NCBI GenBank assembly: GCA_012519745.1
Contig: JAAYPO010000122.1
Coordinates: forward strand, 1 to 46,874
DNA length: 46,874 nt
Reading direction: 5' to 3'
Origin: Clostridiaceae bacterium
Lineage (GTDB): Bacteria > Bacillota > Clostridia > Acetivibrionales > DTU013
Shown: in pieces, positions 4,627 through 36,518 of the stretch
How positions within the stretch are numbered: position 1 is the stretch's first letter
Layout: each line of letters begins with the position of its first letter
The notes under the pieces: model-generated
Databases searched by the model: none
Seen by the model: only the letters and a program-made list of their open reading frames with translations
Told to the model about the DNA's origin: nothing
Translations under genes and position numbers: made by a program

Positions 4627-5922
4627 TCAGTCAGACAGGTCGTGCCTGGCGCCCAGCTTATCCAAAAGGGACTTTTTCCAGCTTTCCACAGAGCGGTGGA
4701 TCACTCTGCCAATGAACCGCTTGCGCAGCTCCTGGATAGCAGGTGTCCTCATTTTCAGCATGCGCTGGTCCGAGTTTGCTTCTTCTTTTAATGCTTCATC
4801 CGAAAGAGAGAATATCTCCCGCCGCATTTGAGTCGCTTCCATTCCACGGTTCAGGAGCATCAGGAAGCCATCCCACCCAGGGCCCGCCCGGAACAGATAT
4901 GTTGCCGCATCCTCACCTGGTATAGAAAACTCCACCACTGCTGTCTTGCCATCTTTGGACGGGATCGCCATCCAGATAGCCCAGCGCAGTGCATCTTCCT
5001 GTTCAGCCGTCAATTCTGCAGCCCCGCCGTCATTCTCGCCCGTGCCCGCGCTCAGATTTGCATCTGCATTTTCATTGAGCTTTTCGATCTCAGCCTGTTT
5101 CAATGCTTCAAACTCCTCATCCGGCAGACATTTGATGCCAACTGCAAGATGCTCGTGATCACATATCTCTTTTAACTGCTCATATGTCGGAGCCGCCTTG
5201 CTGTTCCTTGCCTTTTTTTCTATAGCTCCTGTCAGCGTCACAGGCAGCTGCTTCAACTGGACAGCGATCCCCTCCCGCAGCAATGCTCCGGCTTTGGTGA
5301 CTTCCGAAAACCCAAGGGATGGTACCAGCTTTTTTACAAAGGCAATATCATTGTTCCTTAGCTCTCGTACTCGTTGAGTGATCGCTCCTTCCAGCAGATC
5401 AGAATCAGATCCCAGCATTGAGAAAGAATAGGCTTCATCAGCGTTCAACATGATCGTCAGCGTGTAATTTTCTCTTTTTATACCGTTTATGAACGCAAAA
5501 GGTATACGCCTTGCTCTCAGATTCGGCGACAGGATACAAAGGCAGTCCGAAAACACACCGATTTTCCCATTCCCGTTCAAAACCCCGTAAGAGTATTGTC
5601 CCTCGGTTTCCAGCACCGGCGCTCCGGTTACATAAAATGCAGACAAAACCTTTCTGTTGTATGCGTCCAGCAGATCGCGGTGAAACCACCGGCAGGTCTG
5701 GCCCATTTGTGAAATGACTATGGTTTCACCATTCGTTCTTATTTGTACGGCATGATTCTCAAATGTGATAAAATCCATATCGGCATAGGCGACAGAAACC
5801 CGGTCAAACAAACCGTCAAGGGTAAGTCCGTCAGCACAGATCAGCAGCTTTGCCTCACCCGATAATCGTGAGGAAGAAACCATTGCGTTATAATCAAAAT
5901 CCACGACAGTCTCGTTATCCAT
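4627..5922 (-). CDS. Conserved-looking protein of unknown function
   Basis: A 431-residue soluble protein that I do not recognise. It has no signal peptide or membrane helix. The first 200 residues are beta-rich with two similar halves (a strand-rich block near 20-75 and another near 110-165, each with short polar turns), reminiscent of paired PH-like domains. A Glu/Lys-rich helical linker follows (about 240-300), and a C-terminal block near 300-380 has TAEQEDALRWAIWMA and GRVIHRSVESW. AGAAGGAGG seven bases before the ATG supports the start. It is a single gene that shares the terminator at 4564-4592; the gene upstream is cheB on the same strand, 148 bp away. Confidence 0.8.
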   Translation of the reverse strand: MDNETVVDFDYNAMVSSSRLSGEAKLLICADGLTLDGLFDRVSVAYADMDFITFENHAVQIRTNGETIVISQMGQTCRWFHRDLLDAYNRKVLSAFYVTGAPVLETEGQYSYGVLNGNGKIGVFSDCLCILSPNLRARRIPFAFINGIKRENYTLTIMLNADEAYSFSMLGSDSDLLEGAITQRVRELRNNDIAFVKKLVPSLGFSEVTKAGALLREGIAVQLKQLPVTLTGAIEKKARNSKAAPTYEQLKEICDHEHLAVGIKCLPDEEFEALKQAEIEKLNENADANLSAGTGENDGGAAELTAEQEDALRWAIWMAIPSKDGKTAVVEFSIPGEDAATYLFRAGPGWDGFLMLLNRGMEATQMRREIFSLSDEALKEEANSDQRMLKMRTPAIQELRKRFIGRVIHRSVESWKKSLLDKLGARHDLSD

Positions 5923-6070
5923 TGTCTGCCTCCTTCTACGGTGACCGGCACGTCAGTCAGACACCAATTTTTTAGTTCATCCGTTCAGGAAAATCTATAC
6001 AACAATATTTTACCAGAAATTTGCCTGAATTACTCTATCCCAATGCACTTTCGTACATCCCCTAATAAAA

Positions 6071-7141
6071 TCAGCTCTTTTTAAGCATAAAAAGTAATGT
6101 TCTTTGAATATCTGCTAATGGAACCTGTTTTTCAACCGCACCTATGTTGTATGCCACCTTAGGCATACCATAAACAACACACGACTCTTCATCCTGCCCG
6201 ATAGTCCTGGCGCCACTCCTTCTCATTGACAAAAGTCCTTTAGCCCCATCATAACCCATACCGGTAAGAATGATACCTACAGCTTTACTGCCGCATTCTC
6301 TTGCCACCGATTCAAAAAGCACATCAACAGAGGGACAGTGTCCACTAACCCTTTCACTGCGAAAAACCTGGATCTTGAACCGTCCGCCTGTCTTTTTGAT
6401 CCTCATATGAGCATCACCCGGAGCTACAAACACGCATCCGTTTTCAATATAGTCACCATCCTGTGCTTCCTTCACCCTTAATTGTGTCGATTTATTTAAC
6501 CTCTCGGCAAACATCCGTGAAAAAACAGGCGGAATGTGCTGTACTATGGCAATGCCGGGAATGCTGGGAGGCAAGTATTTTAATATATTATGTATAGCCT
6601 CCGTACCGCCTGTAGAAGCTCCGACAGCAATAATCCGGCAGTCAGTCCCAGTATCTGCAGAAATACCGGCTTCAGCTGCATATCTGCCATCCTTATCAAC
6701 TGCAGCCCCGTAATAATGGTTTTTATTTTTTGTATTTGAAACATTAGCAGCAACTGCGATTTTTACTTTTTTAATAAGCTCGATTATGAACGCTGCAACA
6801 CCTTCTACCGAGTTTGCATCAGGTTTTTCAACAAAATCCACTGCTCCGGAGTTCATAGTTGCAAATACAGCATCGCTAACCGAACTGACGACAACAATGG
6901 GAATAGGATACTGGGGCATAAGCCTGCGAACAAACTCTATCCCGTTCATCCCGGGCATTTCAACATCACATGTAACAACATCCGGCTCATATTCCAGTAT
7001 CCTGTCCCGGGCTTCAAAAGCATCTCTCGCAGTTGCGATTACTTCAATTCCCGGATCAGAGGATATCCCTCTTGAAATAACTTCCCGAAACACAATGCTG
7101 TCATCGACAACCAATACTCTTATCTTTTTTGGAGTATCCAT
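6071..7141 (-). CDS. cheB: CheB: chemotaxis protein-glutamate methylesterase/deamidase
   Basis: A 356-residue protein. An N-terminal receiver domain (about 1-125) has Asp13-Asp14, phosphoacceptor Asp59 (TCDVEMPGMNG) and Lys near 107. The C-terminal methylesterase domain (about 168-355) has catalytic Ser177 (GASTGGT), His202 (VQHIPP) and Asp298 (GMGYDG). By family knowledge it removes methyl groups from receptor glutamates when its receiver is phosphorylated. It is the last gene of the cheY operon, one base after the fusion gene's stop codon. Length and catalytic residues are complete, so it should be active although no receptor gene is nearby. Confidence 0.97.
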   Translation of the reverse strand: MDTPKKIRVLVVDDSIVFREVISRGISSDPGIEVIATARDAFEARDRILEYEPDVVTCDVEMPGMNGIEFVRRLMPQYPIPIVVVSSVSDAVFATMNSGAVDFVEKPDANSVEGVAAFIIELIKKVKIAVAANVSNTKNKNHYYGAAVDKDGRYAAEAGISADTGTDCRIIAVGASTGGTEAIHNILKYLPPSIPGIAIVQHIPPVFSRMFAERLNKSTQLRVKEAQDGDYIENGCVFVAPGDAHMRIKKTGGRFKIQVFRSERVSGHCPSVDVLFESVARECGSKAVGIILTGMGYDGAKGLLSMRRSGARTIGQDEESCVVYGMPKVAYNIGAVEKQVPLADIQRTLLFMLKKS

Positions 7142-7142
7142 A

Positions 7143-8786
7143 TCAATGCACCTTTCTATATACAGCCGGCATTATATATGTAAACCCGGTCCTATTCTTG
7201 TTCAGCGTTTCCGAGTGACCAATAAACAAATATCCGCCATATTCCATCATATCATAGAACTTATTGACCAATTCCCACCTGGTATCGGAGTCAAAATAAA
7301 TCATAACATTCCTGCAGAAAATTACATGGAATTTGTTACGGAAAGGGAAGCTGTTTTCCATGAGGTTGAACTTCCGGAAAATAACTTCATTTTTTATTTT
7401 ATTATCTATTATGTAATTAGTACTGTCATGTTTATTAAAGTATTCAAGCTTCCAGATACCAGGTACAGAAGCTATCGCCTCAGAGCTGTATATTCCCTTT
7501 TTCGCCTCTGCCAGAGCTCTGGTGGATATATCTGTAGCTAATATTTTAGTGTCCCACAACGGTTTTTCTTTTCCGAAAAACTCATCGATTATCATTGCAA
7601 GCGTATATGGCTCCTCACCTGTGGAACAGCCTGCGCTCCAAATCCTCAGATCCTTGTCGGCAGCAGTTTTTTTAAGATACGGAAGCACTGTATCCTTGAA
7701 AAACGAAAAATGCGCCGTCTCTCTCATGAAAAATGTATGATTTGTTGTGATTCTGTCTACCAGTGTCATTACTGCGTATCCGGTAGTATCGGACATAATA
7801 TGATCGAGATACTCGGAAAAGTCCTTGAAGTTATTCTGCATCAGTACGTTGTGAAGTCTTCCCATTTTCATTTCTACTGATTCAGATGTGTCTGGTATAA
7901 ATGTATCATCTGTCTTCGGATGCTCTGATTCGACGTGCTCATCAATTTCGAAAAGCTCGATACTTCTTAGGAAGATGGTTTGAGAAAAAAAGTTGTACAT
8001 CTCTTCATATGTATAGTCAGAACTAAACCATATTTGAAAACCGTCTCTTCTGATTATTTCTTCACCGGCGCCATCAGCGATATTTCCCGGGAGGTACCGG
8101 ATATCTGCAGCAATGTCCTGAAGGCTGTGAATCAGCATATATGACCTAACGCTTTCCATCTCACAACCCATCTCGAAAAAAATCACAGCTTTATATCTTT
8201 TTTTGTACTTCGTTACTTCAGGTAAGGTGTCTGTGAAACCACAAGCAGCTAAAGCTTTTTCTGCTCCAGCCATATCTCCCGATTTTTCATCGGCGTGTTC
8301 CTGCTTTTTTTCTGTGCTGTATGGTATTGCTTCATCCTCTTTTTGAAAATCGATCGATGCTTTGACCTGCCGCACATGATCCTTTATTTTATCAATAAGG
8401 GGTGCAGTATCAACATCATGATCCGGCGTTTCCCCAGCTGTTATTCTCTCAACCTCAGCCTTGATAACATCTATACTCGCCAGGATCAGGTCTGAAATCT
8501 CGGAAAAATCTATTTCATTTTTTTTCGATTTCAGCCTGCTTTCACCTTCCCGCAGCACCAGAAAAAGCTCCTCTGCCGAATGTGCGATCTCTGCAATACC
8601 ATCAAAGCGCATCATAGAAGAGGATCCCTTTATGGTATGCATGATCCTGAATATTTCATTTATCGTATCCTTACTGATTTGTTCTGATTGTTCACTCTCA
8701 ATGATAAGCTGTTCAAGCTGTTCGAGTAATTGCTCTGTCTCAAACACAAACATTTCCAGCATTGGTTCGTTGGTATAATCAAACAA
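7143..8786 (-). CDS. cheR: HPt - CheA-P2-like - CheR methyltransferase fusion
   Basis: A 547-residue fusion. Residues 1-110 are a histidine phosphotransfer (CheA P1-like) domain with His50 in MHTIKGSS. Residues about 196-282 resemble the CheA P2 response-regulator-binding domain (YKAVIFFEMGCEME through TIFLRSIELFEI). Residues 306-547 are a complete CheR methyltransferase: TTNHTFFMRE at 347-356, the SAM loop WSAGCSTGEEPYTLAM at 383-398, ATDIS at 417, FCRNVMIYF at 490-498. CheR methylates receptor glutamates. CheA's dimerisation, kinase and CheW-binding domains are absent, so His50 must receive phosphate from another kinase or from a receiver. The TTG start at 8786 follows GAGGTG by 8 bases, and cheY ends two bases upstream. 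Confidence 0.92.
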   Translation of the reverse strand: MFDYTNEPMLEMFVFETEQLLEQLEQLIIESEQSEQISKDTINEIFRIMHTIKGSSSMMRFDGIAEIAHSAEELFLVLREGESRLKSKKNEIDFSEISDLILASIDVIKAEVERITAGETPDHDVDTAPLIDKIKDHVRQVKASIDFQKEDEAIPYSTEKKQEHADEKSGDMAGAEKALAACGFTDTLPEVTKYKKRYKAVIFFEMGCEMESVRSYMLIHSLQDIAADIRYLPGNIADGAGEEIIRRDGFQIWFSSDYTYEEMYNFFSQTIFLRSIELFEIDEHVESEHPKTDDTFIPDTSESVEMKMGRLHNVLMQNNFKDFSEYLDHIMSDTTGYAVMTLVDRITTNHTFFMRETAHFSFFKDTVLPYLKKTAADKDLRIWSAGCSTGEEPYTLAMIIDEFFGKEKPLWDTKILATDISTRALAEAKKGIYSSEAIASVPGIWKLEYFNKHDSTNYIIDNKIKNEVIFRKFNLMENSFPFRNKFHVIFCRNVMIYFDSDTRWELVNKFYDMMEYGGYLFIGHSETLNKNRTGFTYIMPAVYRKVH

Positions 8787-8788
8787 TC

Positions 8789-9184
8789 CTAAATCACCTC
8801 TTTTTGAGCAGAACCATCCTGTGCATCAAATATTTTGTTCAGAATTAAAACCACATGCTCTTCTTTGAAAGGCTTTACTATGAAATACTTAGCTCCTGAT
8901 ACGATAGCTTCCTTGATGTATGCTTCCTGTCCCAATGCAGATGCCACGATCACATTTGCATTTTTATCAAAGGTCATAATTTGTTTAAGGGCTTCTATTC
9001 CGTTCATTTCAGGCATTGTAATATCCATTGTCACAAGGTCAGGACGATGCTCCATATATTTGTTTATACCTTCAAGCCCGTTCCTTGCTTCAGCAATTAC
9101 TTTGAACCCGTTCTTTTCCAGCATCGTTTTCAACGCCATTCTCATAAATGCTGCATCATCAACTACAAGTACTGTTTTCACCAC
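8789..9184 (-). CDS. cheY: CheY-like single-domain response regulator
   Basis: A 131-residue receiver domain with the acidic pair Asp9-Asp10, phosphoacceptor Asp54 (TMDITMPEMNG), Ser82 (VASALGQ) and Lys104 (VKPF), so all phosphorylation residues are present. There is no output domain. The GTG start at 9184 follows a GGGGGG ribosome binding site. It is the first gene of the operon, downstream of a c-di-GMP riboswitch and hairpin. The phosphate source and target are not encoded nearby; the P2-like and HPt domains of the next gene are likely partners. Confidence 0.95.
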   Translation of the reverse strand: MVKTVLVVDDAAFMRMALKTMLEKNGFKVIAEARNGLEGINKYMEHRPDLVTMDITMPEMNGIEALKQIMTFDKNANVIVASALGQEAYIKEAIVSGAKYFIVKPFKEEHVVLILNKIFDAQDGSAQKEVI

Positions 9185-9204
9185 TATTCCCCCCTTTATA
9201 AATA

Positions 9205-9232
9205 AAAACAGAAGACATCTGCCTTCTGTTTT
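9205..9232 (-). terminator. Riboswitch expression-platform hairpin ahead of cheY
   Basis: On the minus strand, stem AAAACAGAAG / CTTCTGTTTT with an 8-base loop runs into TTTTTATTTAT, the form of an intrinsic terminator. It stands between the c-di-GMP aptamer and the cheY ribosome binding site, so it can decide whether the operon is transcribed. It would also stop transcripts on the plus strand (T6). Confidence 0.85.
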
Positions 9233-9245
9233 TTATACAGTATTT

Positions 9246-9329
9246 ATCCGGCAGCCTGACAATCATAGCAATATTGCTTTAGACTCATAGCTTTGCGTCT
9301 TCACCTTTCGATGAATTTGCCTTTGTCTT
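9246..9329 (-). ncRNA. Cyclic-di-GMP-I riboswitch (GEMM-I)
   Basis: On the minus strand the leader contains the family's conserved elements in order: AAAGGCAAA, a helix UUCAUC / GGUGAA closed by a GAAA tetraloop, the invariant GACGCAAAGCUAUG block, a second hairpin around GUCUAAAGC and UGCUAUGAU, and the closing UCAGGCUGCCGG. This is the GEMM-I consensus, which binds cyclic-di-GMP. A terminator hairpin follows at 9205-9232 and then cheY. ON or OFF polarity cannot be read safely without folding the alternative states. No clear sigma-A promoter was found upstream of it. Confidence 0.93.
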
Positions 9330-9452
9330 GTATATTATTTCATTTTACAACTTTTTCGACATTTTTTGACCCTCAAGCTTAAATATAACATTTAAAATAA
9401 ATCTATTCAAGGATATAAATGGGCTATTTCTTTCAATAGCGCAATAATTTCC

Positions 9453-9478
9453 GGGATACTTTGCAGCTTTTCCTTCGT
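9453..9478 (+). promoter_or_regulatory. Possible ECF promoter for the second sigma gene
   Basis: GGGATAC (9453-9459) and CGTC (9475-9478) are 15 bases apart, 35 bases before the sigma factor start. CGTC is a frequent ECF -10 element, so this could be an autoregulated promoter. The -35 lacks the usual AAC, so confidence is low. Confidence 0.35.
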
Positions 9479-9512
9479 CTAAAGCGTATACAGGTTGGAG
9501 GGAGTTGAGTGA

Positions 9513-15714: not shown

Positions 15715-16902
15715 CTATAGAAAGGCAACATCGATATAAAGCCTTTTTCCGGAGAATGTCTCATACACTTTTTTATCATGCTCAAAGTCAACGATATAGC
15801 AGCTGCTGTCATAATGGATGTGTCTGGTTTTTTCAAAATATGACCTGAGAGGATGACTTTCATGTAAACCGATCATAATAAAATCGAATTCCCTTGCGTC
15901 CTGTCTCATGAATTGCCACAGCCTGCGGGCAAGGATCGAGTCATCATTCTCCGCCCACAAACCTGCACATGCGCAGTTGGCGGCTTCATTTATGCGGGGG
16001 AAGGATGGGTAGCCCAGCAGCCTCGTAGGCAGCTTGCTTATCAGCTTGTATATACCGCTATAGTTTTTTATTACATACTGCTTATAATGCTGTTGATTCA
16101 ACACATATCCGCATGCCGCCAGGGCGTCATCTTTGTATAAGCCATAAAAAACAGCATTCTTCAGATCATATGCCGATACGCTTTCCAGAGAAAGGTCCAT
16201 TTCCGGCGCATGTCGGGCAAAAAAAGTCTCCGCTTCATCTCTGCTGCAGCGCCTGGCAAAATATTGGGACCCCGCCTTCGAGCTTTTGTATAGATTCATG
16301 CCGCCTCTGAAAATGCTGGCCTCCGATTTTCCGATTCCTAAAGCCTCGATATCTGATTTTCTTTTTCCTAAAGCCTCGATATCTGATCCTCCACTTCCGA
16401 AGGCCTTGATCCCTGATTTACAGAAAAAGACTCTATAATCCCCCAGATACTCATATAAGGGCATGAGCTTCCTTGGCTTTTCAAGCATCTTCTGCACGGC
16501 TGTGTTTTCCTTTAGAATGGTGGTGAAATAAAAGTCAACATGATCCCGGGTATGTTCATAAAGTTTTTGATATGCATAGGGAATCAACATCACCTTTTTC
16601 CGATACTCGGGCAATAGCTTGAGACCGGTCAAATACCCCATGTTTACGATTTTACCGTCTTTGAAAACCTTTTTGATGATGCAGGCGCCAAATCCGGCAG
16701 CCTTGTTGGTCTGCCTGTCCCTTAGCATAAGAATGACTGCCCTGTCACCTTCCCGCTCAAACGAAGCAATGGGGTCAGGATCCCTCAAATACTGCACAGC
16801 GATCCCTCCGTCAAATTCCCCGTTGTCATAGATCTCCTTAATATCCGGCCAGTCGCTGCGCCGCGCCGGAACAAGCTCAAATCTGTCATTTGGGGAGCTC
16901 AT
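15715..16902 (-). CDS. GNAT-like acyltransferase (two-domain)
   Basis: A 395-residue protein. The N-terminal third (about 8-150) fits a GNAT acetyltransferase: FELVPARRSDWPDIKEIYDN, AAGFGACIIKKV, MGYLTGLKLLPEYRKK, and an acyl-CoA loop region near 115. The C-terminal half, after a 10-residue tandem repeat, has a second degenerate GNAT-like look (LAACGYVLNQQ, FDFIMIGLHESHPLR). The start at 16902 is preceded by GGGAGGAAT and overlaps the radical SAM gene by 17 bp, which argues for coupled expression. The acyl donor and acceptor are unknown. It is the last gene of the radical SAM/GH3 cluster. Confidence 0.72.
   Translation of the reverse strand: MSSPNDRFELVPARRSDWPDIKEIYDNGEFDGGIAVQYLRDPDPIASFEREGDRAVILMLRDRQTNKAAGFGACIIKKVFKDGKIVNMGYLTGLKLLPEYRKKVMLIPYAYQKLYEHTRDHVDFYFTTILKENTAVQKMLEKPRKLMPLYEYLGDYRVFFCKSGIKAFGSGGSDIEALGKRKSDIEALGIGKSEASIFRGGMNLYKSSKAGSQYFARRCSRDEAETFFARHAPEMDLSLESVSAYDLKNAVFYGLYKDDALAACGYVLNQQHYKQYVIKNYSGIYKLISKLPTRLLGYPSFPRINEAANCACAGLWAENDDSILARRLWQFMRQDAREFDFIMIGLHESHPLRSYFEKTRHIHYDSSCYIVDFEHDKKVYETFSGKRLYIDVAFL
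16318..16420 (-). repeat. In-frame 30-bp tandem repeat in the GNAT-like gene
   Basis: Three to four copies with a 30-base period (common core CCTAAAGCCTCGATATCTGA on the plus strand) encode KSDIEALG-type 10-residue units between the two halves of the protein. The last copy has diverged. It lies in a linker and may vary in copy number. Confidence 0.85.
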
Positions 16903-18217
16903 CCAGATTCCTCCCAACAGGCACATTCATTTTTTCGTCCACTTCTCCGCCGATGCTCAGATTCATTGCCCAGAACAAAAACCACAGAAGCGGGCTCGTC
17001 CTTCCCATGGCCGAAAGCCCTCTCCGAAGTATGTTCTTGGCACCGGAAAACTCCTTCCTGGCATCCCGGCAAAGCCTGCTGAGCCTTTCCGGAGACATGT
17101 TCTTCGGCAGGAAGGCCAGCTGGCCATAGTTGTAATCCTCCGCAAGCCACCATTTCTCAGTCAGCAGCCTGTTTTCCTGCTTCAGGCGCTCATATAAGCC
17201 GGTTCCCGGGAAGGGCAGCAGATGGTTGAAGGCGGCGGTATAGAACCTGTGCTTCTCTGAAAAACGAAGTGCATTTTCAATGGTCTGCTCCGTATCATGA
17301 TCATACCCGAATATGAAGGTAGCATAAATGCCTATGCCCGCTGCATGGATGCGCTTTACCAGCTCATCCCTCTCCTTTATATTCAGATTTACCGCTTTAT
17401 TCATCTGTTTCAGATTTTCCTCTTCAAGGCTTTCAAAGCCAATCAGTATGATCTCGCAGCCGCTGTCCTTCATGGCCTTCAGCAGTACCTCATCCTTAGC
17501 CATGCTGAGGGTGCCCTGTCCCGCCCACTTTATCTTCAGCGGCCTGATTTTTTCAAAAAGCTCCATTGCATTCCGTTTGTCCGCTATCAGATTGTCATCC
17601 ACCAGGAAATGATACTTATGCTCGGAGCGCTGGATGTCCTTCAGAATGTGTTCATGGGGCCGGGCATGATATTTGCAGCCGTAATAGCCTGCTATGGAAC
17701 AAAAATCACAATGGTTACAGCAGCCCCTGCCTGTCTCGATCAAGGAAACAGGCATATATTTCTTCCCGGCATAAATGGACTTGTCAGGCAGCAATGGGCT
17801 GTATACAGCCTCGCCGTCGTAATGCTTCTTCAGTTCACCTCTTTGGAAATCCTTCAGCATGGTTTGCCAAACCGCTTCGGCATTACCTGTAACGATCGCA
17901 TCTGCATGCTGCAAAGCTTCATCAGGCATCATGGTCACATGATAACCTCCAAGGACGACCTTGGCTCCTCTTTCCCTGAAAGCCCTGCTTATCGCATAGC
18001 TGCGTGCTGCCGTATACGTTTCGACAACTATCGCCACAAGGTCTGTCGGAGCATCATAATCGATAAGCTCTATCCTGTCATCATAAAAAGCTGTCTCCAC
18101 ATCCTCCGGCGTCAGGCTTTTCAGCACAGCGATGGTCAACGGCTCCATTTTCCAAGTTCCTATATATTTCTGTCCCGGCTTCTTTCCTATTGCCGGCAAT
18201 ATAAATGTCAGTTTCAT
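16886..18217 (-). CDS. B12-binding-type radical SAM protein A
   Basis: A 443-residue protein. Residues 1-145 form a B12-binding-like Rossmann domain (LTFILPAIG, FYDDRIELID, VVLGGYHVTMMPDEAL, AIVTGNAEAVW) without the DxHxxG histidine. The radical SAM core follows, with the cluster motif C166-x3-C170-x2-C173 (GCCNHCDFC), FLVDDN and LIGFESL. The C-terminal part has FNHLLPFPGTGLYERL and a WWL segment, as in the class that includes HpnP-like proteins. Members use 5'-deoxyadenosyl radical chemistry, often with methylcobalamin, for methylation, ring formation or C-C coupling. The start is ATG 18217, behind AAGGAG. It lies 77 bp after paralogue B and overlaps the GNAT-like gene. Confidence 0.93.
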   Translation of the reverse strand: MKLTFILPAIGKKPGQKYIGTWKMEPLTIAVLKSLTPEDVETAFYDDRIELIDYDAPTDLVAIVVETYTAARSYAISRAFRERGAKVVLGGYHVTMMPDEALQHADAIVTGNAEAVWQTMLKDFQRGELKKHYDGEAVYSPLLPDKSIYAGKKYMPVSLIETGRGCCNHCDFCSIAGYYGCKYHARPHEHILKDIQRSEHKYHFLVDDNLIADKRNAMELFEKIRPLKIKWAGQGTLSMAKDEVLLKAMKDSGCEIILIGFESLEEENLKQMNKAVNLNIKERDELVKRIHAAGIGIYATFIFGYDHDTEQTIENALRFSEKHRFYTAAFNHLLPFPGTGLYERLKQENRLLTEKWWLAEDYNYGQLAFLPKNMSPERLSRLCRDARKEFSGAKNILRRGLSAMGRTSPLLWFLFWAMNLSIGGEVDEKMNVPVGRNLDELPK

Positions 18218-18294
18218 CGTATTTCTCCTTGTATGACACATCGTTTTTCACCAGCCTGTGAAGGCGCCGGTATCGTTTAGCCAGAAGCAGTTCC

Positions 18295-19638
18295 TTACCG
18301 GGCTGCAGCCGGCAGTGGAATGTCCGAGTCGTCGCACATAATGTCCCTTGTAAAGTGCAAAAACCTATCTGCGTATTTCTTGTACCCCATATTCAGAGGA
18401 ATCGACAGCCATGGGCTGTGAATAAAGGGTGCCAGCCTTGCTGCAATATCCTTCGCGCTATAGGTATGCTTCCATGCCCATACGATCCCCTCTTCCAGCT
18501 CCTCCACACTCATTTTGGCCGGTTTGAACACACAATGCTCAACATCATACATCGCCCAGTTGCGCTCAATGATCCGCCCTGCCTTATCCAACTCTCTATA
18601 TAGCTGGGTGTTGGGAAACGGAGTAAGGATACTGTATCTGGGCAAATCAATTTTTATTTTTGTGATCATCTCCGCGGTCTGCTCAAAAACCGACCTGTCC
18701 TCATCATCCCCTCCGAAGGCAAAGCACCCCTGCACCAGTATGCCATGTGCATGGAGCCTTTTCATCAGTTCTCCATAGCTCTCGACATGGTTTACTCCTT
18801 TATTGATATATTTCTGAGATGACTGCCAGATAGATTCGAAACCAATAAGAAGTCCTTTGCAGCCGCTCTTCTCAAATAGGGATATCAGTTCCTCGTCCAC
18901 CCCTATGTGCGAGGTGACAAGCCCGAGCCAAATTATTTTCAGCGGGATGAGCGCAGTAAAAAGCTCGATGGCATACGCCCTGTCCGCAATCAGATTAACA
19001 TCGGGAAATATAATAATTTTTGCATTAAGCGCCTCGATTTCCCTTACGACTTCATCAACAGGACGTTTGTACACCGTGCTGCCAAATGCCGCCGGATAGG
19101 CGCAAAAGGTGCACGGAAAGCTGCAGCCTCTAACTGCCTCGACTGTATTGACCGTAATGTAGCCTTTTTTATTGAGAAGCTCTCTTCTCGGGATCGGTCT
19201 GTTTGCTATCGTATAATCACAGCCCTGATGATAAAAGGGTTTCAGCTCTCCTTGCGCAAAATCCCTGAGCATCTGTGGGAATGTATGCTCCGAAAATCCG
19301 GTCATAACAGCATCCGCATGGCCGGCAGCCTCCTGAGGCATCAGCGTAGGGTGCACTCCCCCGAGAACCACCTTTATTCCCCTGCTGCGGAAATAGTCCG
19401 CATAGGCGTAGCACCTGGGAGCTGTACCTGTAATGCAGGTGATCCCTATTATATCCGCCTCCAGATCCAGTGGTATGTTTCCTGCAGTCTCATCATAAAT
19501 GACCACCTCCGCATTAAGCTCATCAGGCACAAGTGCAGCCAGGGTAGTCAATGTGAGCGGCGCGTAATGAAGAGATTTTCCGAAACTTCCGTTGTACCTG
19601 TGCATTGCTCCAGCCGGAGCCAATAATGCAATTTTCAT
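18295..19638 (-). CDS. B12-binding-type radical SAM protein B
   Basis: A 447-residue paralogue in the cluster. The B12-type domain has KIALLAPAGAMHRYNG, VIYDETAGNIP and VVLGGVHPTLMPQEAA; the cluster motif is GCSFPCTFC near residues 172-180 (CX3CX2C); FPDVNLIAD and LIGFESIWQ follow. It is the most divergent of the four: it has SFGKSLHYAPLTLTTLAAL at the N-terminus, where the others have a MEPL-type motif, and lacks the WWL segment, with NWAMYDVEH instead. The start is ATG 19638 behind AAGGCGGG. A 322-bp gap upstream suggests that B, A and the GNAT-like gene form their own transcription unit. Confidence 0.93.
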   Translation of the reverse strand: MKIALLAPAGAMHRYNGSFGKSLHYAPLTLTTLAALVPDELNAEVVIYDETAGNIPLDLEADIIGITCITGTAPRCYAYADYFRSRGIKVVLGGVHPTLMPQEAAGHADAVMTGFSEHTFPQMLRDFAQGELKPFYHQGCDYTIANRPIPRRELLNKKGYITVNTVEAVRGCSFPCTFCAYPAAFGSTVYKRPVDEVVREIEALNAKIIIFPDVNLIADRAYAIELFTALIPLKIIWLGLVTSHIGVDEELISLFEKSGCKGLLIGFESIWQSSQKYINKGVNHVESYGELMKRLHAHGILVQGCFAFGGDDEDRSVFEQTAEMITKIKIDLPRYSILTPFPNTQLYRELDKAGRIIERNWAMYDVEHCVFKPAKMSVEELEEGIVWAWKHTYSAKDIAARLAPFIHSPWLSIPLNMGYKKYADRFLHFTRDIMCDDSDIPLPAAAR

Positions 19639-19960
19639 ATGGATTTACCCGCCTTTACAGTATTGTGTCAGTCTTTGGTTACTTTCACGTCACTTCAGGA
19701 GACATTTGCCTACTTTCATGCTTCTTCTGGAGGCTGTCTGTTCAAAATTTCAACTTTGATATGTTATTTCCCAAATACCAGTTAACATATTACATTGAAG
19801 CGCCAAATTATGTTACCATTTTATGGTTAATTATCATATTTATTTCCCAAATTCATAACTTACTTGCATTTTTGCACACTGTACTGCCGAGTCGATGGCA
19901 GCCAGCCTGCTAATCGGACTGTCTGATTCGGGACAATGGCAGCTGGTGTGCATGAATTGC
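19639..19960. other. AT-rich intergenic region with a 13-bp direct repeat
   Basis: This 322-bp gap splits the radical SAM cluster into two parts. It has no gene. A 13-bp direct repeat (TTATTTCCCAAAT, at 19764-19776 and 19840-19852) lies in AT-rich DNA, and one copy is embedded in an imperfect palindrome with ATGTTA and TAACAT ends. These could be operator sites for the downstream unit. No clean sigma-A promoter was identified. Confidence 0.45.
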
Positions 19961-21514
19961 TTATTGCACTGCCTGATCAGCCAAACAGCCCGTGAAATAC
20001 TTGTCCCAGTCCTCCCTTGCCGAAAGCCATGCCGGCTTGATGTCTCCCAGCTTCTGACCCGCAGCCAGGCAGCCATCCACATATTCCTTCTTCGGATCAC
20101 CCGTCAGTACAAATATCTGCAGCTCCTTCAGCTGCCCCAGCTTTCTGCAGTAATCATAATGAAAGCTTTCTCTCAACGCATTGTCAATCTCTTCGCCGGA
20201 TGGAGGCGTATCGCTTTTTATATACAGAACATAACGGTCTTTACGGGGAGCAAGCAAATAAAACTCCGCTTCCGGGGCAAGCCTCTCCACAGTCTCCCTG
20301 ACAAAGGCTTCATGAAGCTTTTCACCGAACATGTCGCTGATCCTGTCATTCTTTCCTTTAAAAACAAGCAGCGGCAAACTCTTTCTCCACCCGACCACCT
20401 TAACTATATCATAAGTACGGCAGCGATAAAAACCCCCGCCTGTGGTCACCACCACCTCATATTCCTTCCCTGTTTCAAGTTCATTGACAAGACGAACATT
20501 CCTTGTATTGATATCAATGAATTCAAAAAAATGCGAGTAGACACTCAGGACCCCTCCGTCTTCCCCTGCCAAAGGGAAGGAAACAAAGCTTTCTGTAGAC
20601 AGCAGGCCCTTGGGCTGAATTATGCATTGCGGAAACAGGCTTGCCACTCTATCGGCATAAGCGGCTGCATATGCATCACACCAGCAGCTTATGACCTTAA
20701 GCCCCGGCCATATTTTGTCATAAGTCTTGCTGTAAACAGCCTGCCGGATCTCCTCACGCCTCTTTCGGATTAATTCATCAAGCAATCGTTCCTTGTGTCC
20801 ATCCAGATAATCCAAAAGGAGCAGCAGGTAGGTGGGATTCCACACAGAAATCAAAGTAAGCTCCTTTGTCTTCAGAAGTTCGACAACCGTCCTGGTATAA
20901 AACCTCTCCATGTCGGTTTCTTTGCCGATGTCACCAGGGCGGGCAAAAATCCTGTCCATCAGGTATTTTTCCAGTCTGCCGAAGTAGTCGGAATCCTCCT
21001 CAAAGCCGATCGGTATACCGCTTTTGGTATACTTCTTCCCGCTTGTTGCCGGTGTGATGGACCAATAGCTTTTTCCCCACCTGATTTCGGGATATGAAGT
21101 ATACAGATCATATATCCATGGCTTTATGCCCCTCTGGAATTCTTCCTTCAGGGATTTTGTATAAGGAATGAGCTTGGCTGCTTTCGTCGAACCGCTTGTG
21201 GGCTCGAAGGTGATGATTTTCTCCGCAGTCAGCAGACTTTCTTCCTTCTGCGCCAGTTGCTCTATATAAGGCCTGTAGGTTTCATAATCCGACAGCGGCA
21301 CCTTTTGCTGATAAGCTTTTATGCCGTCAATTCCTTCGAACCCATATTTTCTGCCGTAGGCCGTGTCCTTATTTTTGGACAAAATCTCCTTCAGCCTGTC
21401 CTCCTGTACCTCCATCGCGGACGTTACAGCGGCAAACTTCATGTATTCCTTCTTGTAAAGCTGACAGCATATTGTGTTGACAAGACAACAGAAAATTGCT
21501 TTTGGATCCCTCAT
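19961..21514 (-). CDS. GH3-family acyl-adenylating enzyme
   Basis: A 517-residue protein with the GH3 (auxin-responsive promoter family) pattern: N-terminal helix region with NKDTAYGRKYGF, the adenylate-binding loop EPTSGSTKAAKLIPYT near residue 108-123, AVYSKTYDKIWPGLKVISCW, and TTGGGFYRCRTYDIVKVVGW near 355. GH3 enzymes adenylate carboxylic acids and transfer the acyl group to amino acids; bacterial members are poorly known. It sits in the middle of the radical SAM cluster, 36 bp after GNAT-like B. The likely role is to activate the acid made or modified by the radical SAM enzymes, or to attach it to an amine. The substrate is unknown. Confidence 0.92.
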   Translation of the reverse strand: MRDPKAIFCCLVNTICCQLYKKEYMKFAAVTSAMEVQEDRLKEILSKNKDTAYGRKYGFEGIDGIKAYQQKVPLSDYETYRPYIEQLAQKEESLLTAEKIITFEPTSGSTKAAKLIPYTKSLKEEFQRGIKPWIYDLYTSYPEIRWGKSYWSITPATSGKKYTKSGIPIGFEEDSDYFGRLEKYLMDRIFARPGDIGKETDMERFYTRTVVELLKTKELTLISVWNPTYLLLLLDYLDGHKERLLDELIRKRREEIRQAVYSKTYDKIWPGLKVISCWCDAYAAAYADRVASLFPQCIIQPKGLLSTESFVSFPLAGEDGGVLSVYSHFFEFIDINTRNVRLVNELETGKEYEVVVTTGGGFYRCRTYDIVKVVGWRKSLPLLVFKGKNDRISDMFGEKLHEAFVRETVERLAPEAEFYLLAPRKDRYVLYIKSDTPPSGEEIDNALRESFHYDYCRKLGQLKELQIFVLTGDPKKEYVDGCLAAGQKLGDIKPAWLSAREDWDKYFTGCLADQAVQ

Positions 21515-21550
21515 AACAGCACCGGCCTTTACCTTAGCTTTCGGGCGGCT

Positions 21551-22255
21551 TCATTCAAATAAAAGCCTCCGCATCCTGGCAGACAGATTCGACATGCTGA
21601 GCTTTGTGACGCATACCAGATCGTTGCCTTTTATGTATCCTGGATTTCTTTCCACAAAGAAGGCGATATTTTTATCCTTCAGCCGCTCCTTGCTCACATC
21701 CGCCACATTTTCCTTCAGCTTGTCCTTGACTCCCCTGTAACAAAGGACCCCCGTCCTTTCATCGTACTCCTCCGGGCTGTAGAATCTGCCGAAGGCATCG
21801 ATTATATCCTTGATCCTCCCGGGAGTTTCTTCCTTATAGTTTGGATAAAAGGATTTGTAGAAGGTCGGCAGTATCCTGTAGGTTTTGTAGCCCTTGCAGA
21901 TTAGGAACCAGTAAAAATCCCCGTATTGCTCCTCATATTTGAAAAAGGACCTCGCAAAAATCTTGAATAGCTCCGCACTGCCCCAATAGTCCTTATGGAT
22001 GATCGTATCTCCTGAAAAAACTCCATGGATAAGCTCGCCGCCCAACGGTATGTGCATGATGTGCTGTGTGGAAAAACCCCGTATTATGCCGTCGTCATCA
22101 CGCAGCACGATGGAAAAGTCCTTCTTGTTCAGATCATTCAGGAAGTTTTCCCGCGTCATATTGTCATAAAAGGTATCCATCAGCTCATACATCGTCTCTA
22201 TATCTTCATGTCTCAGCGCATTAATCTCTTCCAGGCTTCCCGTCAGCTTTACCAT
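21551..22255 (-). CDS. GNAT-like protein
   Basis: A 234-residue protein with a weak acetyltransferase look: INALRHEDIETMYELMDTFY at the start, FSIVLRDDDGIIRGFSTQH, HGVFSGDTIIHKDYWGS near 85-100 and FKIFARSFFKYEEQ. The glycine-rich acyl-CoA loop is not obvious, so enzyme action is uncertain. ATG 22255 is preferred because GGAGGG lies eight bases ahead; an ATG 12 codons upstream lacks such a site. It lies between radical SAM C and the GH3 gene, so it is probably part of the same pathway. Confidence 0.65.
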   Translation of the reverse strand: MVKLTGSLEEINALRHEDIETMYELMDTFYDNMTRENFLNDLNKKDFSIVLRDDDGIIRGFSTQHIMHIPLGGELIHGVFSGDTIIHKDYWGSAELFKIFARSFFKYEEQYGDFYWFLICKGYKTYRILPTFYKSFYPNYKEETPGRIKDIIDAFGRFYSPEEYDERTGVLCYRGVKDKLKENVADVSKERLKDKNIAFFVERNPGYIKGNDLVCVTKLSMSNLSARMRRLLFE

Positions 22256-22285
22256 TGATGCAATCCCTCCATATTCAAAATGAGG

Positions 22286-22357
22286 CTTCACGCACTCAGT
22301 CTATCCACACATGAATCATGTCTTCGCGCACTCGGTCTGTCCTCACATATCACTGCT
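22286..22357. repeat. 36-bp imperfect tandem duplication between genes
   Basis: Two copies, starting at 22286 and 22322, share CTTC-CGCACTC-GTCT-TCC-CACAT with a few substitutions. They fill part of the 155-bp gap between radical SAM C and the GNAT-like gene. No function can be assigned. Confidence 0.7.
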
Positions 22358-22410
22358 GTCGGCACCGACATCAGGCATTCTCCGGCTTCCCTCCGATGCG
22401 AATCAGACAC

Positions 22411-23781
22411 TTACCGGCACTGGACGTCCTCCGTCTCCTTGCTCTTCTCTGTCAATCCAAAGCGCATCCCCTGCTTCTTGAATACTTCCTTCCTGAAAAG
22501 CGGATTGTACAACAGGTATGTGAAGAAGCGATACAGGCTGCGCATGTTGGTCCTCGGCTCCAACGCCCTGGAAAAAACGGACCATGGCGAGTTGAATGTC
22601 TTCCGGCACCAGAAGGACACCTCCGTCAGCTCTTCAGGCGACATGTTCCTGGGGACAAAAGCCGCATGATTGAAGCGGTACTCCTCATGGAGCCACCATT
22701 TGCCCCCATACAGCAGCCGCCCCTCCTTTTCCAGCTTGTCATACAATGGTGTGCCCGGATAAGGCATGAGTATGTTGAATGCTGCAAAGCAGAACTTGTT
22801 CCGGATGGCGAACCGGCAGGTTTCGATGATGCTCTCTTTGGTATCCCCGTCATATCCCAGGGTAAAGGCAGCCCAGGTCTGAAGCCCCCATTCCCGCAGT
22901 TCCCTTATTTCTTTCTCATAGTGATCCAGGGCCTTCCTCCTGTTTGCGCCCTTTGCCGCAGCCGTCAGATTCTCCTCATTTATGGATTCAAACCCAATGA
23001 CCAGCCCCAGACACCCGCTCCTGACCATAAGCTCCATCAGTTCCCTGTCCTCGAGCATATCCATGCATCCCTGACTGACCCACTTCACCTTCAGGGGAAT
23101 AAGTGCCCGAAAAAGCTCTTTGGCTTTGTCAAAATCCGAAACTATGTTATCATCTACAAAAAACAGCAGCTTCCGCTTTTGGCTCCTGATCTCCTCAACG
23201 ACCTCATCGACCTCCCTGCAATATTGCCTCCCCTTGAAGTATGCGCTGGAAGCACAGAAATTACAGTGGTATTTGCAGCCTCTCGAAAACTGCAGCAAAG
23301 TTATCGGCAGATAACCTTTCCCTTCGAATACATCCCTTCTGGTGATAACTCCCTTTTGCGGCACCAGAGGCTGTACAGCCCGGTACTCCCGCTTCAGTTC
23401 ATTGCACGAAAAATCCAGCAGCATCTCCTGCCATACATCCTCCGCGTCCCCGATCAAAACAGCATCCGCATGCTCCTTTATCTCATCAGGTATCAGCATC
23501 GCATGCATACCGCCCATCACAACAGGCACGCCCCGTTTTCTATATTCCCCGCCGATCTCATAGGCCCGCCTTGCCGTAAAGGTCTCCACCGTGATGGCAA
23601 CCAGATCGGCAGGCTCATCATATGGTATTTTTTCCATGCGGTCATCATACATGACCACCTCGATATCCTTCGGGGTCAATGCTGCCAGGATGCCAAGCTG
23701 CAAAGGCTCCATACGGCCCTCGTCAACGTACAGGCTATGCTCTCTCCTGCCTATATTGGGTTTTATCAAAACCAGCTTCAT
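22411..23781 (-). CDS. B12-binding-type radical SAM protein C
   Basis: A 456-residue protein of the same family as A and D. The B12-type domain has LVLIKPNIGRREHS, GRMEPLQLGILAALTP and MYDDRMEKI; VVMGGMHAMLIPDEI follows. The radical SAM motif is GCKYHCNFC (CX3CX2C) near residue 170, with FFVDDNIV and LVIGFESI. The C-terminal domain has FNILMPYPGTPLYDKL and KWWLHEEYRFNHAAFVPRNM. The start is ATG 23781 behind AGGAGATATG; the first 47 bases overlap the end of gene D, so the two are translationally linked. The reaction is unknown. Confidence 0.94.
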   Translation of the reverse strand: MKLVLIKPNIGRREHSLYVDEGRMEPLQLGILAALTPKDIEVVMYDDRMEKIPYDEPADLVAITVETFTARRAYEIGGEYRKRGVPVVMGGMHAMLIPDEIKEHADAVLIGDAEDVWQEMLLDFSCNELKREYRAVQPLVPQKGVITRRDVFEGKGYLPITLLQFSRGCKYHCNFCASSAYFKGRQYCREVDEVVEEIRSQKRKLLFFVDDNIVSDFDKAKELFRALIPLKVKWVSQGCMDMLEDRELMELMVRSGCLGLVIGFESINEENLTAAAKGANRRKALDHYEKEIRELREWGLQTWAAFTLGYDGDTKESIIETCRFAIRNKFCFAAFNILMPYPGTPLYDKLEKEGRLLYGGKWWLHEEYRFNHAAFVPRNMSPEELTEVSFWCRKTFNSPWSVFSRALEPRTNMRSLYRFFTYLLYNPLFRKEVFKKQGMRFGLTEKSKETEDVQCR

Positions 23782-25087
23782 TCGACATATCTCCTAAAGG
23801 TCTTCCCTGTTTTCTGTGAATCTCTCTGTTGGATATAATGTTCATCGCCATAAACAGAAAAAAGCTGTAGGGCTTCAGATGTATACCACCGGTAAATAGA
23901 CGCTTCAATATGCTGCGTGCCCCGTAAAATCTGTAACGGATCGACCTGCAGCCGTCCCTCAATTCCTCGGGGGACAGCTGTCTGGGGCGGAAGACGGCAT
24001 CTCCATAGCGGTAGACCTCACTCAGCCACCATTTATCATAAATCAACCGGCCCTCCTGCTCAAGTCTTTTATAAAGAGGCGTTCCCGGCATGGGAGTCAG
24101 CGGATTGAAATTTGCGACAGTGAAATTATGCTTCATTGCAAAACTCAAAACCTCATCAAAGCTCTCTTTAGTATCCTGGTCATAGCCCAGTACGAAGGCG
24201 GCATAAATAAGCAGACCATGCTTGTAAACATTATCAATTGCTCTGTCATATCCGCCCACAGCGATGTTTGCAGATTTGTTCATCTGCTCCAGGTTCTTTT
24301 TGTTAAGGGATTCGAAACCCATCATGACCATAATGCAGCCGCTTTCCTTCATCATCGCCAGGAGCCTGTCGTTCAGGGCAGCATCCATACTGATCTGGCA
24401 GCCCCATTTTTTCTTCAGCGGCTTCAGCTCCCTGCAAAGGCTTATGGCAGCCTCTTCGTCCGTCAGCAGATTATCATCTATGAATAATATTGTCTTCTCT
24501 TTTGCCGCCTTCACCTCTTCGATGACCCGGCCGATTTCCGCCCGGCGGACCTTTCCGGGATACATGGCCCTGATCGAGCAGAAATCGCAGCAGAACCTGC
24601 AGCCCCGCGAAAACTGTACCTGTCCGATGCGCTTGTACCTCTTTCCCCTGAAGGCTGGATGCTCCATATCGATCGGTGCAAAATCCGAACTCTGCTCTGA
24701 AGTATACAACGAACTGACCCTGCCGTTTATGGCATCCTCTATGAATCTGGGCCAGGTATCCTCCGCATCCCCTGCGATGATCACATCCCCGTATGCCATG
24801 GCTTCTTCCGGAAGCAGGCTTACATGAAAGCCTCCCAGCGCAATGATGTTATCCTCCGTTTTATGCTTTTTTGCAAGCTGATATGCCCTTCTTGCAGCAT
24901 ATGTATCGAATGAAAGCGCTATGATATCTGATGTCAGTGTCTGCGGCAGCTTCTCGACACGGTCGTCCAGAAACTCCATCTCTATCCCTTCAGGAGTCAA
25001 ATGGGCCAATATAGGAAAAATAAGAGGTTTCAAAGCATCATTGCACTTGCCTTCAGACATGTTTACTTTAATGACTGTTACTTTCAT
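23735..25087 (-). CDS. B12-binding-type radical SAM protein D
   Basis: A 450-residue paralogue and first gene of the cluster. The N-terminal domain has VTVIKVNMSEGKCND and EFLDDRVEKLPQTL; IIALGGFHVSLLPEEAM and AGDAEDTWPRF follow. The radical SAM motif is GCRFCCDFC near residue 170 (CX3CX2C), then LFIDDNLLTD and MMGFESLNKKN. The C-terminus has FNPLTPMPGTPLYKRL and KWWLSEVYRYGDAVFRP. The start ATG 25087 follows GGGAG. Upstream lie two 18-bp direct repeats and a hairpin (25149-25240) that may control the whole cluster. Confidence 0.94.
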   Translation of the reverse strand: MKVTVIKVNMSEGKCNDALKPLIFPILAHLTPEGIEMEFLDDRVEKLPQTLTSDIIALSFDTYAARRAYQLAKKHKTEDNIIALGGFHVSLLPEEAMAYGDVIIAGDAEDTWPRFIEDAINGRVSSLYTSEQSSDFAPIDMEHPAFRGKRYKRIGQVQFSRGCRFCCDFCSIRAMYPGKVRRAEIGRVIEEVKAAKEKTILFIDDNLLTDEEAAISLCRELKPLKKKWGCQISMDAALNDRLLAMMKESGCIMVMMGFESLNKKNLEQMNKSANIAVGGYDRAIDNVYKHGLLIYAAFVLGYDQDTKESFDEVLSFAMKHNFTVANFNPLTPMPGTPLYKRLEQEGRLIYDKWWLSEVYRYGDAVFRPRQLSPEELRDGCRSIRYRFYGARSILKRLFTGGIHLKPYSFFLFMAMNIISNREIHRKQGRPLGDMSNEAGFDKTQYRQERA

Positions 25088-33600: not shown

Positions 33601-34461
33601 TCATCCTCGGTTGCCGGCAGTTTTTTGCCTGACGTGTTTATTCAGCAGAGCTAAAAGACAGGTAACCGCTATGACAGAAAAGCACATAATGCACACCAAT
33701 ACTACATACTCAATGAATTGTCCGTTGTCGTTCCTGTATGCACCGTTGAGGAAAGGGATACCGAGTGTTATTGAAAAATAGAAGAATACCGGCAGAGACC
33801 ATTTGAGTACAGTGTTAAAAGCAGGCTTGCGCGAGTCTGCCGCCTCGGCTGTTTCCATCGATTGATGCTGTGAGGAGCTCGGCGAAAATCGTGGTGAAAA
33901 ATGCGTGGATAGCCGAGAAGATGAACTCTTGACTGCCTTATCTGCGATATGGTACAGAAACAGCAATGCCGTAAAATATACCAGCGTGCCTTCCATGGTA
34001 TGGACTCTTTCGGGAGTTACCAAACCCCCATAGAAATCCATCTGCAAAAGATAAATGGAGGGGATTATCCTCAAGCTGTTGACCAGTATCGTATAAGGGT
34101 AAATGCTCACAAGGCTCAAAATCAGCCATGCGATTCTGCTTCCAGTTGTTCTCATATGATGCATGAAGGAAAAGATCAATGTGGTAAAGGCAATTATCAT
34201 AAAATTGATCCCGGCACACACGGGAGCTATCACAAACTCGTAATTGTGGTTTATATATCCCACACCGGGCGCTTTCTTGAAGTTGATGCCGCTGAGGACC
34301 TGTACCCACCAAGTGGTGGGTGCCAGGATCCAGTCAAGCTCGTCAACGCCTGCCCGGCTGTAATAGAGCTTCAGTGCGAAGGCAGCGGCAAGTCCTATCG
34401 CGTAGAAAACGCCATATTTTTTGAGTATCGATCTCACCTTAGTCCAAAAATCGGATGACAT
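33601..34461 (-). CDS. Exosortase family protein
   Basis: A 286-residue polytopic membrane protein with the exosortase catalytic triad in order: Cys in APVCAGINF (near residue 83), Arg in NSLRIIPS (near 129) and His in ERVHTMEGTLV (near 151), each at a membrane boundary. Six or more helices. The family, mainly described in Gram-negative bacteria with PEP-CTERM proteins, cleaves C-terminal sorting signals. ATG 34461 lies two bases after the upstream gene's stop and follows GGACGG. Directly upstream is a VIT/VWA protein with a matching C-terminal signal, its probable sole substrate. The type resembles XrtK, but I am not sure of the subclass. Confidence 0.88.
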   Translation of the reverse strand: MSSDFWTKVRSILKKYGVFYAIGLAAAFALKLYYSRAGVDELDWILAPTTWWVQVLSGINFKKAPGVGYINHNYEFVIAPVCAGINFMIIAFTTLIFSFMHHMRTTGSRIAWLILSLVSIYPYTILVNSLRIIPSIYLLQMDFYGGLVTPERVHTMEGTLVYFTALLFLYHIADKAVKSSSSRLSTHFSPRFSPSSSQHQSMETAEAADSRKPAFNTVLKWSLPVFFYFSITLGIPFLNGAYRNDNGQFIEYVVLVCIMCFSVIAVTCLLALLNKHVRQKTAGNRG

Positions 34462-34463
34462 AA

Positions 34464-36482: not shown

Positions 36483-36518
36483 TCCATACACCTCGCAAAA
36501 TATTCTTGACCGGTTTTT

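Follow-up and report, generated by a model that had tools for sequence, protein, structure and literature searches.

The window analysed here, a stretch of 46,874 nucleotides from the genome of a Clostridiaceae bacterium, contains a short chemosensory operon in which cheY, a fusion gene and cheB follow one another on one strand with hardly any gaps. The fusion gene joins the HPt (P1) and P2 domains of the kinase CheA to the receptor methyltransferase CheR, and its ribosome-binding site, GAGGTGA, overlaps the end of cheY. A riboswitch aptamer and a terminator-like hairpin precede the first gene. In the direction of reading of the operon, its features are:

9247..9331, minus strand: c-di-GMP-I riboswitch aptamer (RF01051) upstream of cheY, full length, 83.2 bits (gathering score 35)
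9204..9233, minus strand: terminator-like hairpin behind the aptamer, an inverted repeat of -15.5 kcal/mol
8789..9184, minus strand: cheY, 131 aa, GTG start (Response_reg, 105 bits)
7143-8786, minus strand: HPt-P2-CheR fusion gene, 547 aa, TTG start
8499..8762, minus strand: HPt (CheA P1) domain, residues 9-96 (Pfam PF01627, AlphaFold model, PDB matches)
7950..8195, minus strand: P2 CheY/CheB-docking domain, residues 198-279 (Pfam PF07194, model and PDB match)
7863..7925, minus strand: deletion junction, residues ~288-308, where similarity to CheA ends and similarity to CheR begins
7176..7742, minus strand: CheR SAM-binding domain, residues 349-537 (Pfam PF01739; 58 of 59 invariant residues)
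6071..7141, minus strand: cheB, receiver plus methylesterase, 356 aa (Pfam/NCBIfam)

The aptamer has the features of the c-di-GMP-I class, an RF01051 match followed by an expression platform, which here consists of the predicted terminator and a predicted antiterminator (-7.2 kcal/mol) in which the 3' arm of the aptamer pairs with the 5' arm of the terminator. From this arrangement we infer a predicted OFF switch, in which binding of c-di-GMP would free the terminator and turn the operon off. No riboswitch was found at the relatives' operons that were examined. The same genome holds two further c-di-GMP-I aptamers in tandem (G000:C11:25913-26186; L079, L080), which precede a transglutaminase-like gene and then a GspE/PilB-like gene; this suggests a c-di-GMP regulon joining pili and the che operon. 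A promoter scan returned sites no more numerous than in shuffled sequence.

Domains and conserved residues of the fusion protein

An earlier note, made from the DNA letters, had placed an HPt domain with a phospho-accepting His50 and a P2-like domain in front of CheR, with no kinase, dimerisation or CheW-binding domain, and the profile searches bear this out. Pfam detects both Hpt (PF01627; 58.3 bits, E 9e-16, cut-off 24.6) and P2 (PF07194; 47.5 bits, E 2e-12, cut-off 23), and the phospho-accepting histidine that characterizes a CheA P1 domain is His50, in the motif MHTIKGS (about 8637-8639). AlphaFold predicts confident folds for Hpt (7-116) and P2 (196-281), and the best PDB matches of these models are a complex of CheA P1 with CheY and P2, CheA P1 domains, and the T. 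maritima CheA P2-CheY complex; confidence for the CheR half is too low for use. Sequence comparison with solved structures relates the C-terminal half to CheR and the N-terminal half to CheA P1. In NCBIfam, residues 9-276 match CheA and residues 304-543 match CheR, both below the full-length cut-offs. The P3 dimerisation, P4 kinase and P5 CheW-like domains have no Pfam match in the fusion, whereas all three were detected by the same approach in the CheA proteins of L037 and L054, which served as controls.

The SAM-binding catalytic domain of CheR is present with its conserved residues and scores 211 bits (PF01739; E 1e-62, cut-off 27). The CheR that the earlier note called complete nevertheless turned out to be truncated, since the all-alpha CheR_N domain is cut in half. 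What is left of CheR_N, at residues ~309-346, scores 15.5 bits, below the cut-off of 27, and covers profile positions 28-52 only, while the CheRs of relatives score 49-55 bits across the whole profile; ~33 N-terminal CheR residues are missing.

Residues invariant among orthologues, as defined by 23-30 sequences per gene, are almost all retained: 27 of 27 in CheY, 89 of 89 in CheB, 58 of 59 in CheR and 25 of 28 in the N-terminal part of CheA. The lone CheR exception, K303, sits at the join, and the changes in the CheA part are conservative. His50, K53, H69 and E72 are all kept; these (His50, Lys53, His69, Glu72) correspond to the phosphorylation residues His48, Lys51, His67 and Glu70 of E. coli CheA P1. 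The HPt domain also carries a six-residue insertion in a loop at residues ~85-93 (~8508-8534), absent from all related CheAs aligned.

The CheR core and the shortened N-domain stand at average distances from their orthologues, and HPt and P2 are the fastest-evolving parts relative to CheR. Relaxed selection on HPt-P2 was considered as an explanation and rejected, as the rate relative to CheY lies within range and the CheA of G002, a genome of the same genus, behaves alike. Judged from these alignments, there is no fusion-specific relaxation and no sign of decay. A young deletion would leave the residues intact too, so they fit either function or a recent deletion.

Origin from a common chemosensory operon

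When the fusion protein was searched against 60 related genomes, it gave two separate sets of matches. Residues 1 to ~290 align with CheA N-termini at about 38-47% identity, and residues ~301-545 with CheR at 62-69% (up to 67% in the 60 relatives and 69% in a class search). In about 30 related loci where both are readable, cheA and cheR are two genes of one cluster, with the usual order cheY-cheA-cheW-(mcp)-cheR-cheB; mcp is missing from one group of genomes. In the fusion genome, cheY and cheB stand at their usual places and the fusion replaces everything from cheA through cheW and mcp to cheR. The junction joins the linker between P2 and P3 of CheA (~codon 290) to ~codon 33 of cheR, inside CheR_N. 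The missing piece amounts to ~3.7 kb when measured on the mcp-containing operon of Anaerosacchariphilus (L037) and to ~2 kb on mcp-less operons. Comparison with these operons shows the fusion to derive, on the evidence of the alignments, from one in-frame deletion (about 2-3.7 kb) that removed CheA P3-P5, cheW, mcp if present, and the start of cheR, an origin that the earlier note did not contain. The fusion illustrates clearly how a one-step deletion within an operon can create a new domain combination, and its parent genes are still recognisable in relatives.

Compared with the CheA of such operons (L037; same-genus G002, L054), the fusion shares HPt, P2 and the place after cheY, with about 40-45% identity over residues 1-290, but it lacks P3, P4 and P5 and has gained the HPt insertion. 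Compared with their CheR, it likewise lies before cheB, but HPt-P2 stands in place of the first ~33 residues. A long open frame had suggested an mcp-cheR fusion at the cheR of G038, where the genes proved to be separate. In the one-contig genome of L081 (4874-6939; G034:C1), cheA is split after P2 into a 255-aa HPt-P2 ORF and a kinase part in another frame, either because the gene is disrupted or through an error in sequencing.

The state of the assembly favours a true deletion over an artefact. The assembly comprises 3.07 Mb in 138 contigs and is 99.99% complete and 0.38% contaminated; the skipped genes lie on none of its contigs, which argues against misassembly. The one CheA kinase core that it encodes belongs to the flagellar-type cluster and is 36% identical to the CheA that goes with this operon type in the same genus, and its CheW-family genes are 29-37% identical to the CheW of this operon type, as against 63-81% among relatives. 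Nor does the fusion genome encode a receptor with the C-terminal ending F[GD]xKY that characterizes these operons. No N run, direct repeat or base-composition step is found at the junction. As a separate observation, the receptors in L037 (7730-7777), L054 (9760-9808) and L039 (9559-9596) share the terminal motif ...[DE/M]FGKY-stop, possibly a docking tail for CheR.

The fused form was absent from a GTDB r220 scan, the 60 relatives, the family, 58 genomes of the order and 391 genomes of the class, and the junction 30-mer was not found in viral contigs. Text searches of open-access papers found no HPt-CheR or CheA-CheR protein, in agreement with the earlier note, which knew of no characterised protein with this domain order. 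A survey of CheA architectures reports P1, P3, P4 and P5 in all CheAs, together with bipartite forms and some fusions, and mentions CheR a single time, in its introduction, without counting it among the fusion partners (PMC10782961). The CheR-TPR proteins, such as FrzF and WspC, form the described family of CheR fusions (PMC3447774). They resemble the present protein in that an interaction module has been added to CheR, but this module is TPR and not HPt-P2, and they act in other pathways and occur almost only in Gram-negative bacteria.

Possible function and competing explanations

The fusion is a real and rare chimera, and both a working regulator and the relic of a broken system fit it. We put at about even the chance that it is a working, kinase-less CheR with some activity, which docks CheY and CheB, exchanges phosphate and was born from the in-frame deletion. 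Its product would be a methyltransferase whose N-terminal domain is shortened and to which HPt and P2 are attached as an arm that lacks the kinase, encoded by an operon that c-di-GMP probably shuts off. P2 would dock the CheY and CheB of the operon next to CheR, the flagellar CheA would phosphorylate His50 in trans or His50 and CheY would pass phosphate between them, and any activity of the CheR part would be directed at the receptors that remain. We infer expression of the gene, and docking, phosphotransfer and methylation by its product. Such a protein is supported by the match of both halves to genes of one operon, by the usual places of cheY and cheB, by the absence of the missing parts from the rest of the assembly, by the retained phosphorylation residues, invariant residues and HPt and P2 folds, and by the intact riboswitch. 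A parallel is the CheA3/CheA4 pair of R. sphaeroides, where a P1 protein that has no working kinase obtains its phosphate in trans, from a different CheA (PMC10782961, PMC2829493). Because CheA domains work in trans in that system, the fusion could receive phosphate from the flagellar CheA. R. sphaeroides CheA3 differs in that it keeps a CheW-like P5, sits in the receptor array and carries no CheR.

A role for the fusion is opposed by its occurrence in one genome only, by the cut CheR_N and by the loss of the receptor, CheW and kinase that belonged to the operon; the shortened CheR_N and the lost receptor render the putative CheR activity doubtful. These same points favour the explanation that ranks next, a non-functional remnant of a second chemosensory system that is being lost in the genus, in which the deletion happened to be in frame by chance and the product has no selected role. 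Since a single in-frame deletion in a common operon is involved, this is a serious rival to a true regulator, although we consider it the less probable of the two. The other four genus genomes examined all carry less of the system: G002 has cheY-cheA-cheW-mcp with no cheR or cheB behind, G001 has only cheB and a cheR stub, and in G003 and G004 none of the system was found. The stub in G001 lies beside phage-terminase-like sequence and is possibly chimeric. The second system seems dispensable in the genus, which supports the remnant explanation. Yet the fusion, cheY and cheB contain no stop or frameshift, nearly all invariant residues are kept, the CheR core and shortened N-domain diverge at an average rate, and the riboswitch is intact, all of which speaks against a remnant.

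The phosphate-gated methyltransferase proposed in the earlier note, in which phosphate on His50, or phosphorylated CheY or CheB bound to P2, directly alters CheR activity, is a special case of the docking and phosphate-exchange explanation. His50 and its partner residues, P2, the CheR core, CheY and CheB are intact, and the R. sphaeroides precedent of a P1 protein phosphorylated by another CheA would suit such gating (PMC10782961, PMC2829493). The fused form is not conserved, however, and the same doubt about CheR activity applies, so that direct gating appears unlikely. An equally unlikely extension is that adaptation is gated by both phosphotransfer and c-di-GMP, the flagellar CheA being the source of the phosphate in trans, and the whole arising from one deletion.

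Least plausible is an artefact in which the central part of an intact operon was left out during assembly: the fusion is known from one draft genome only and another draft (L039) has exactly such an artefact in this operon, with NN at the join, but the missing genes, the clean junction and a join that is in frame and within an interdomain linker make this very improbable. The L039 case (9290-9330, UBA1434 assembly) had been considered as a second deletion fusion, cheA-mcp, and was rejected because NN and a duplicated stretch mark it as a scaffold artefact; its existence justifies caution about the present fusion.

If the docking, phosphate-exchanging CheR works, phosphotransfer and receptor methylation are linked in one chain, and one can ask whether adaptation can be steered by a P1-P2 unit that has no kinase. 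Otherwise, the locus offers a snapshot of a second chemosensory system being lost, and a warning against inferring function from a new domain order alone.

Surroundings of the operon

The che operon (~6000-9500) has a G+C content of 0.36-0.44, as against 0.47-0.52 in its flanks, and was possibly acquired from elsewhere. The ORF behind cheB (4627-5922, minus strand; 431 aa, no Pfam or NCBIfam match) was tried as a further operon member and rejected, because in G004, where it again lies near the same flavodoxin-like gene, no che gene accompanies it; the G004 copy is 71% identical, and a remote relative occurs in G026. Four B12-binding radical-SAM-like proteins, a GH3-family adenylase and GNAT-like proteins are encoded at 16886-25087 (minus strand), in what looks like a biosynthetic cluster. 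At 33601-36491 (minus strand), Exosortase K (TIGR04287) adjoins a VIT/VWA-domain protein.
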